From Reyranella sp. (GTDB lineage: Bacteria; Pseudomonadota; Alphaproteobacteria; Reyranellales; Reyranellaceae), in assembly GCF_004297405.1 (NCBI RefSeq), contig NZ_SCVC01000006.1:62001-126000 (forward strand): a stretch of DNA of 64,000 bases, read 5' to 3'. The notes under the pieces are model-generated. The model saw only the letters and a list, made by a program, of their open reading frames with translations. It ran no database searches and was not told the origin of the DNA. This document shows positions 22,582-25,211 of the stretch, piece by piece. Every line of letters begins with the position of its first letter. Within the stretch, counting starts at the first letter, position 1. The position numbers and the translations under genes were made by a program.

Positions 22582-22908
22582 ATGCTGCGAACGGTGTTGA
22601 TTGCACTTCTCGCGCTGGCTATCGGCGGATGCGCAAACGCGACGCACGACGACCACCGGCATGTCGCCACCGGAAACGAATACTACGATGTCGTTGGCCA
22701 TGGTGCGCACGAGCATCGCATCGTCGGCAAGGCCGACACGGTGACGATCACCAATGTGAGCAAGGACGACAACGGCTTCGCGCTGGCCAACGAGTATTGC
22801 GGCGGCCGTGGCAAGATTGCCCATGCCTTGCGGCCGGTGCGCTATACCTCTTTTCACCGGACGTGGAACAGCACTCTGTTCGGGTGCGTGCCGGGCACGA
22901 GCAGCTAG
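22582..22908 (+). CDS. Small putative lipoprotein
   Basis: MLRTVLIALLALAIGGCANATHDDHRHV... lipobox-like IGGC. Confidence 0.7.
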   Translation: MLRTVLIALLALAIGGCANATHDDHRHVATGNEYYDVVGHGAHEHRIVGKADTVTITNVSKDDNGFALANEYCGGRGKIAHALRPVRYTSFHRTWNSTLFGCVPGTSS

Positions 22909-23435
22909 AGCGCGCCCTCGTGCTCCAGCAGCCACTTCTTGCGCGGCAGGCCGCCGCCGTAGCCGGTGAGCGTGCCATTCGAGCCGATCACGCGATGGCA
23001 AGGTACGACGATGCTGATCGGGTTCTGTCCGTTGGCGAGCCCGGCGGCGCGAACGGCGCGCGGCTTACCGATGCGGCTCGCGAGTTCGGCGTAAGAGATG
23101 GTCTTGCCACGCCGGATCTTGCGTAGCGAACGCCAGACGCTGCGCTGGAATTCCGTGCCCGTGGTTTCCACCGGCAGCTTGTCGATCACGTCGATGTCAC
23201 CCTTGAAGTAGGCGCGCATCGCTTGCGTCAACCCGCCGGGATCGCGCGCCGGTTCGAGCGTGTAGCGGCCCTGGCCGTAGTAGCGATCGAGCAGGAGGCG
23301 CATGCGCGCTTCGTGATCGGTCCAGTCGATGGTGCGCAGGCGACCCTCGCGGTCGGCCACGATCAACAGCTCGCCGATCGGCGTTGCGAGGCGATCGACA
23401 AGCAGCTCCAAAGGTCCAACGCTCTTCTTAACCAT
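22905..23435 (-). CDS. ogt: Methylated-DNA--[protein]-cysteine S-methyltransferase
   Basis: GTEFQRSVWRSLRKIRRGKTISYAELASRIGKPRAVRAAGLANGQNPISIVVPCHRVIGSNGTLTGYGGGLPRKKWLLEHE. Confidence 0.95.
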   Translation of the reverse strand: MVKKSVGPLELLVDRLATPIGELLIVADREGRLRTIDWTDHEARMRLLLDRYYGQGRYTLEPARDPGGLTQAMRAYFKGDIDVIDKLPVETTGTEFQRSVWRSLRKIRRGKTISYAELASRIGKPRAVRAAGLANGQNPISIVVPCHRVIGSNGTLTGYGGGLPRKKWLLEHEGAL

Positions 23436-24480
23436 GGCTCGCCATCCTGAGGTGCTGCACGGCATAGGCGTTCCACGGACGCCAGGCCGGAGGTGATCTG
23501 TCGTCGACAGTGGCGACCGGGGCATCGCGTTCCCAGTCGCCGGGGGCGCGCAGGCCGGGACGCTTGGCGATCAACGGCGCCAGTTTGGGATCGCGCGCGA
23601 GATGGCTGCCGATCGTGGCGATATCGGCGCCGAGATCGAACACGCGGCGCACCTTCGCGACGATGGCGGGGAGCGCCTTCATCTCGGGAAAGCGGATCGT
23701 CACCATCACCGAGTTGCGCTCCGGCATATGCGCGACGGCGACGGTGCCCTTCTTGCCATCGAGTTCGATGCCGCGATGCCACACGCCATTCTCGATCCAC
23801 TCCGTGCGCGGTGCGGCGCGGGCGGCCAGCGCCGCCAGCATGCCGGGCCAGTCGTAGGGCGGGCGATAGGCCAGCCGCAGAGTGACGCCGTCGCGCGCCG
23901 ATGTATCCGCGCCGGTCTTGCGGCGGAGCGCGCTGGGTGGCCGGCCGAACAGGCTGCGGAAGGTCTCGTTGAAGCGGCGCACGCTGCCGAAGCCCGAAGC
24001 CAGCGCCACTTCCGCCATCGGCAGGCGCGTGTCGTGGATGAGCTGCTTGGCGAAGAGCACGCGGCGCGTCTGCGCCACGGCGACTGGCGAGGCGCCGAGA
24101 TGGCGCTGGAAGAGGCGGCGGAGCTGGCGTCCACCGACGCCCAGCCGTTCGGCCAGCGCCTCGACGCCGGCTTCATCGTCATCCAGTGCGCCGTCGGCGA
24201 TCAGCGCCAGCGCACGGCTCACCGTGTTGGCGGTGCCGCGCCAGAAGGCGAGGTCGGGTGCGATCTCCGGTCGGCAGCGCAGGCAGGGGCGGAAGCCTGC
24301 TTCCTGCGCCGCGGCGGCCGAGGCGAAGAAGCGGCAGTTCTCGAACTTCGGCGCGCGGGCCGGGCAGATCGGCCGGCAGTAGATGCCGGTCGATGTGACG
24401 CCCACGAACACACGCCCGTCGAACCGGGCATCGTGGCTCTGGAAGGCGCGGTAGTAGGTTTTGCGGTCGAGCAGTTCCAT
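23428..24480 (-). CDS. Ada-like (zinc/phosphotriester domain + AraC HTH) fused to AlkA N-terminal domain; HhH-GPD core apparently absent
   Basis: GVTSTGIYCRPICPARAPKFENCRFF, FRPCLRCRPE, AraC HTH, AlkA_N (VTLRLAYRPPYDWPGMLAALAARA), then RPGLRAPGDWER joins directly to PPAWRPWNAYAVQHLR. Confidence 0.85.
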   Translation of the reverse strand: MELLDRKTYYRAFQSHDARFDGRVFVGVTSTGIYCRPICPARAPKFENCRFFASAAAAQEAGFRPCLRCRPEIAPDLAFWRGTANTVSRALALIADGALDDDEAGVEALAERLGVGGRQLRRLFQRHLGASPVAVAQTRRVLFAKQLIHDTRLPMAEVALASGFGSVRRFNETFRSLFGRPPSALRRKTGADTSARDGVTLRLAYRPPYDWPGMLAALAARAAPRTEWIENGVWHRGIELDGKKGTVAVAHMPERNSVMVTIRFPEMKALPAIVAKVRRVFDLGADIATIGSHLARDPKLAPLIAKRPGLRAPGDWERDAPVATVDDRSPPAWRPWNAYAVQHLRMASHG

Positions 24481-24557
24481 GACGGTAATCTCTCACGCAG
24501 GCGCGAATGGTGCTGGCGGTTTTCGGACCCGTACATCGGGGCCGATGAACCAGCCCG

Positions 24558-25211
24558 CTAACGTGATCGATGAACCCTGTAGGCGCACCGGCGGGCGCCG
24601 GCGAGGAGGTGATCGATCCGCTGGACCATGATGCCATCGCCGAGGACATTCTGAAAGATCGCCAACTCCGACCGGCACAAAGCCTGACAGGTCGCCGCTG
24701 CAGCGCAGATCGGGCAGTGATCCTCGACGAGCAGGAAGCTGCCGTCCCGCTCTGGAATCACACGGGCCATGTAGCCTTCCTGGCTGCGCGCTGCGGCTAG
24801 GGCGTCGAGCTTCGCGCGCAGGGACAGCCGGCTAGGGACGAGCTTGCGATAGCGATCGAGGGAATCCTCCTCGCGGTGGCGGACGAGCTTTTCCAGCCCC
24901 GCCTTGCCGAAGACGGCTTGGGTCGATCGTATGAGTTCGAGCGTCAGGTCGGAGTGGCGATCGGGAAAGCGTCCATGTCCCTGATCGGTCAACCGCCAAA
25001 GCCGCGTCGGCCGTCCACGCTTCTGGCGTTGCTCCTTGCGCTGTTCGTTCCGTTGCTCCTGGCCTTCGACGAGTCCGTCGGCCTGTAGTCGAGCGAGATG
25101 CTGGCGGGCGCCGGTCGACGTCATGCCGAGGCGCGTGCCGACCGCGGCGGCCGTCTGCGGACCGCGCGTCTTGAGCTGGAACAGGATTCGATCGTCGCTC
25201 GTTGCCGCCAT
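24558..25211 (-). CDS. Winged-HTH transcriptional regulator with C-terminal Cys cluster (SufR-like, possible Fe-S sensor)
   Basis: RGPQTAAAVGTRLGMTSTGARQHLARLQADGLV HTH; C-terminal HCPICAAAATCQALCRSELAIFQNVLG...RRCAYRVH. Confidence 0.75.
   Translation of the reverse strand: MAATSDDRILFQLKTRGPQTAAAVGTRLGMTSTGARQHLARLQADGLVEGQEQRNEQRKEQRQKRGRPTRLWRLTDQGHGRFPDRHSDLTLELIRSTQAVFGKAGLEKLVRHREEDSLDRYRKLVPSRLSLRAKLDALAAARSQEGYMARVIPERDGSFLLVEDHCPICAAAATCQALCRSELAIFQNVLGDGIMVQRIDHLLAGARRCAYRVHRSR

Follow-up and report, generated by a model that had tools for sequence, protein, structure and literature searches.

The 64,000-nt stretch of Reyranella DNA that we analyzed (the window) encodes a 350-aa protein whose homology to Ada-AlkA fusions covers the sensor, the HTH, AlkA_N and the C terminus, with the glycosylase core missing. 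The excision is genus-wide and not specific to the source strain, and Brevundimonas and Niveispirillum have short forms of a similar kind. From its sequence features, we consider it likely that the protein is an Ada-AlkA fusion reduced to a methyl-phosphotriester sensor that activates ogt and a small regulon and has no glycosylase activity.

Table 1. Features of the core-less Ada-AlkA locus (window positions)
Feature	Position	Strand	Basis
ogt, O6-methylguanine methyltransferase, 176 aa	22905-23435	-	Pfam DNA_binding_1, E 8.9e-35; NCBIfam PRK10286 above cut-off
Ada-AlkA protein without glycosylase core, 350 aa	23428-24480	-	ORF and Pfam
AlkA C-terminal segment kept, residues 332-350, WRPWNAYAVQHL...	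23431-23487	-	Invariant residues, pN/pS, predicted helix
Junction linker, residues 318-331, site of missing HhH-GPD core	23488-23529	-	Low identity, low pLDDT
AlkA_N, residues 200-317, including the helix that precedes HhH-GPD in complete relatives	23530-23883	-	Pfam, E 1.5e-37
AraC-type HTH_18, residues 109-187	23920-24156	-	Pfam, E 1e-22
Ada_Zn_binding, residues 9-72	24265-24456	-	Pfam, E 3.5e-29
Candidate Ada box GTCCGAAAACCGCCAGC, in the 77-nt gap upstream of the ada gene	24512-24528	-	Same element before 156/158 loci

Pfam and alignment bore out the layout proposed in the first-pass annotation, namely an Ada zinc domain, an AraC-type HTH and AlkA_N followed by the AlkA C terminus. Complete Ada-AlkA relatives are 485-502 aa long. 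Over residues 1-319 the window protein was 72% identical to one of them, the 502-aa L052 of Microvirga alba, with which it also shares the tail motif; its C-terminal motif is the WRPWxAYAxxHL of AlkA. Alignment with full-length homologues, which the first-pass annotation had suggested as a check, showed the core to be missing: the complete relatives L035 (495 aa) and L037 (485 aa) read ...RPGLRAPGAWDGFELAVRA[core]...AETWRPWRAYAAQHLW, and the window protein reads ...RPGLRAPGDWERDAPVATVDDRSPPAWRPWNAYAVQHL at the junction. It tracks the complete relatives up to RPGLRAPGDW, diverges from them for about 14 residues and matches them again from WRPWNAYAVQHL on. About 150 residues, the helix-hairpin-helix and catalytic Asp region, are swapped for about 14. 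The resulting net shortening of 135-152 residues, with a reading frame that is open through the junction, agrees with the earlier estimate that 130-150 residues had been lost in frame.

No Pfam match to HhH-GPD was obtained in the 350-aa protein even at E ≤ 1. This absence is informative because the same profiles located the domain at residues 325-475 of the complete relative L052, our positive control; a hidden HhH-GPD domain was thereby ruled out, and the scan upheld what had been read from the letters. Since HhH-GPD with its catalytic Asp is absent, the protein cannot act as an AlkA glycosylase.

Searching 65 Reyranella genomes with the complete 502-aa protein, we found the short form, starting at residue 1 or 2 and ending at about residue 320 of the query, in 50 genomes, and the glycosylase core of Ada-AlkA in none of the 65. 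Among named genomes, R. massiliensis 521 is the nearest (97% identity). The first-pass annotation had allowed for complete closest relatives or for a domain found by profile; the closest relatives are short as well, and no HhH-GPD was found by profile. Because the core-less form recurs in 50 of the 65 genomes, it is neither chance nor misassembly, and a collapse of the assembly across the core has next to no probability, the same junction being present in independent assemblies that include the single-contig G016 and G022.

In the sister genus (g26), complete versions were found in three of four genomes, and the fourth was complete but frame-shifted. In one genome of another genus of the same family (G450), we found a 452-aa Ada-AlkA whose core is shortened and poor in motifs (L170, around 960-2350). 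It may represent an intermediate stage of core loss. The short forms in Brevundimonas and Niveispirillum, about 353-370 aa long, likewise retain AlkA_N and the C-terminal motif but lack HhH-GPD. The Brevundimonas junction differs (...LxxRAEAWRPWRAYGALHL), and most of these proteins share a C-terminal ...AA extension with complete Phenylobacterium proteins. A tree of residues 1-314 separated Reyranella from the other short forms across a starred branch. Constraining all short forms together was 22.5 log units worse, yet was not rejected by the AU test (p 0.24); at least two independent core losses are therefore favored by these sequences and not proven. Since the complete genes of g26 sit in the other half of the tree from the Reyranella short forms, vertical loss from a g26 complete gene was rejected.

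The four cysteines of the zinc domain (Cys35, 39, 66 and 69) did not vary among 24 Reyranella sequences or among 38 sequences of the short and complete forms; Cys35 is expected to be the methyl acceptor. Tail residues W333, P335, W336 and Y339 were invariant across short and complete forms, and identity in the linker was 37% within Reyranella. The pN/pS values within the genus were 0.16 for Ada, 0.23 for HTH, 0.33 for AlkA_N, 0.19 for the helix after AlkA_N and 0.11 for the tail, compared with 0.81 for the linker. AlkA_N is no more relaxed in Reyranella than in the complete forms (0.41-0.42). Because the synonymous divergence (pS) of the tail was the highest among all segments in Reyranella, overlap with the ogt start or translation signals does not account for the conservation of its protein sequence. 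The AlphaFold model had a mean pLDDT of 81, with about 90 for AlkA_N, values below 50 for linker residues 320-325 and a confident terminal helix at 337-348. Foldseek found N-Ada and the AlkA N-terminal domain in the window protein, AlkA_N matching E. coli AlkA (3ogd) over 118 columns (rmsd 2.4, E 8e-07); the alignments cover AlkA_N alone, and the tail was not placed. By these patterns, AlkA_N and the two helices kept with it, the one that follows it and the C-terminal one, remain under selection; they most likely persist as a structural or partner-binding module.

Proteins of about 200 aa that consist of Ada-N and HTH exist without AlkA_N or the tail, so regulation alone does not explain why both were kept. 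One explanation is a non-catalytic docking or lesion-recognition module formed by AlkA_N and the terminal helix, which could, for example, hold Ogt, the pair rebuilding an Ada-like sensor and methyltransferase. The kept pieces are discontinuous in AlkA and yet co-conserved, and almost every Reyranella and Brevundimonas locus has ogt as the next gene. The Ada-AlkA of M. smegmatis binds Ogt, the two forming a complex in gel filtration, but the interface there was only docked (PMC7432924). The Niveispirillum short forms, which have no ogt alongside, count against Ogt docking as a general rule, and we regard this explanation as unlikely.

Still less probable, in our assessment, is that the protein is a decaying relict, the deletion being the first step toward a pseudogene and AlkA_N and the tail remnants without a role. 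Decay would fit G444 (L224), which kept the box and an intact ogt and has only a remnant of the regulator gene, so that this gene is dispensable in G444. It would also fit Brevundimonas, where constraint on the helix after AlkA_N is weaker than in complete forms (pN/pS 0.65 vs. 0.11-0.17). In Reyranella, however, every kept segment is under strong purifying selection, the tail most of all and not through its overlap with the ogt start signals, with an unconstrained linker in between.

The 8-nt overlap with an adjacent ogt, noted in the first-pass annotation, is correct (ogt 22905-23435; ada stop ending at 23428), and ogt is intact, with its PCHR motif. Upstream, 77 nt from the ada gene, lies a gene for a SufR-like MarR/ArsR-type regulator (24558-25211, minus strand; NCBIfam SufR_cyano, E 6e-29, below cut-off). 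The intervening gap contains an element with the consensus GTCCGAAAACCGC(G/C)AG(A/C), nearly invariant upstream of short and complete Ada-AlkA genes. It was found in 156 of 158 partly overlapping loci from Alpha-, Beta- and Gammaproteobacteria, Myxococcota and Acidobacteria (≤4 mismatches), at a nearly constant spacing from the start codon that was 31-39 nt in most cases; seven of its positions (GTCCG and GC) never varied. Based on this distribution, it is a candidate for the Ada box of this clade; its likeness to the E. coli Ada box is only general (PMC3788762). Two genomes with the complete form have a further copy of the box before a separate, stand-alone AlkA-type gene. Several Phenylobacterium Ada-AlkA promoters (L068, L069, L072, L073) have two tandem copies about 30 nt apart. 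Short Ada-N/HTH paralogues in other Reyranellaceae (L278-L285, about 190-220 aa) have a divergent upstream element, CTCGCCGGA(A/T)TC(A/G)GACTC, which resembles the box in reverse orientation.

The 6.46-Mb genome has two exact-class sites: the copy in the window, GTCCGAAAACCGCCAGC, and one upstream of a glyoxalase-like (VOC) gene (L175, G000:C44:327039-327055). A further site, before an SRPBCC-family gene (G000:C48:247458-247474), deviates from the first search pattern at two positions and from a broader pattern at one. In all 30 Reyranella SRPBCC loci found, the box was present with 0-1 mismatches, 47-57 nt from the start (mean of about 6.5 for shuffled upstream regions). It was also found upstream of VOC genes in four genomes and, in other genomes, before PaaI-like thioesterase and MFS genes (named by sequence resemblance). 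Five box-bearing family members outside the genus had no box beyond that of their own gene. The target set thus probably extends beyond ogt, as judged from box positions. Short Ada-N/HTH paralogues are absent from the window genome, whose separate 387-aa Ada (L002) has no box upstream; the 350-aa protein is therefore the natural candidate regulator in this genome. Six Reyranella genomes, some of them incomplete, have the SRPBCC box without the 350-aa gene (G010, G019, G020, G030, G033 and G428), and therefore another Ada-like regulator may use the box.

In Ada, methyl transfer to a zinc-bound cysteine turns the protein into an activator. We propose that the N-terminal zinc domain of the 350-aa protein would likewise take the methyl group of a DNA phosphotriester onto Cys35, and that the methylated protein would bind the GTCCGAAAACCGCNAG box via its AraC-type HTH. 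It would then activate its own operon (the ada gene and ogt) and a few further genes, predicted in the window genome to be the VOC and SRPBCC-family genes. The first-pass suggestion of a sensor and regulator, with ogt supplying the methyltransferase, gains support from the invariant zinc cysteines, the common box, the boxes before other genes and the adjacent intact ogt, all of which fit such a role. Base excision would fall to separate HhH-GPD proteins, for which the window genome has four loci, two of them AlkA-like. Both AlkA-like proteins match the core at just 28-31% identity and therefore look like old stand-alone enzymes; a move of the core to another gene by fission was rejected on the same grounds. 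We would advance only tentatively a broader scenario, in which the core was lost repeatedly, AlkA_N was retained along with the helix behind it and the C-terminal one because they make up an independent regulatory mini-domain (serving Ogt docking or the control of activation), and the Reyranella regulator took over a wider alkylation regulon with SRPBCC and glyoxalase-like genes.

Ada-AlkA fusions with the core have already been described (PMC1839093, PMC7432924); in the literature searched, with partial coverage, we found no description of a core-less form. The window protein resembles the fusions of Mycobacterium, Ralstonia, Microvirga and Caulobacteraceae in its Ada zinc domain, AraC HTH, AlkA_N and C-terminal WRPWRAY helix, in the ogt that is often adjacent, and in the upstream box common to the proteobacterial, acidobacterial and myxobacterial members examined, but has a short unconserved linker for the HhH-GPD core of about 150 residues. 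With E. coli Ada, a transcription activator, it shares the zinc methyl-phosphotriester domain and AraC HTH; instead of a fused O6-methylguanine methyltransferase it has AlkA_N and the tail, with ogt separate and overlapping. Like Bacillus AdaA and short Ada-N-HTH proteins, it appears to be a sensor/activator without an enzyme domain whose methyltransferase gene is separate, whereas AdaA-like proteins, including the short paralogues in other Reyranella, are about 200 aa long and lack AlkA_N and the AlkA tail. The AlkA_N fold and C-terminal motif are those of E. coli AlkA (PDB 3ogd, 1mpg), without its helix-hairpin-helix and catalytic Asp region.

AlkA_N resembles TATA-binding protein, for a reason that has been called obscure (PMC9266487), and its presence without a glycosylase in the 350-aa protein offers a clean way to probe its role. 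From the conserved box, the Ada regulons of many bacteria with Ada-AlkA can be predicted directly. Within one fused protein, sensing has been split naturally from repair and kept so across Reyranella, and the core-less protein is most likely now only an alarm switch for repair genes.
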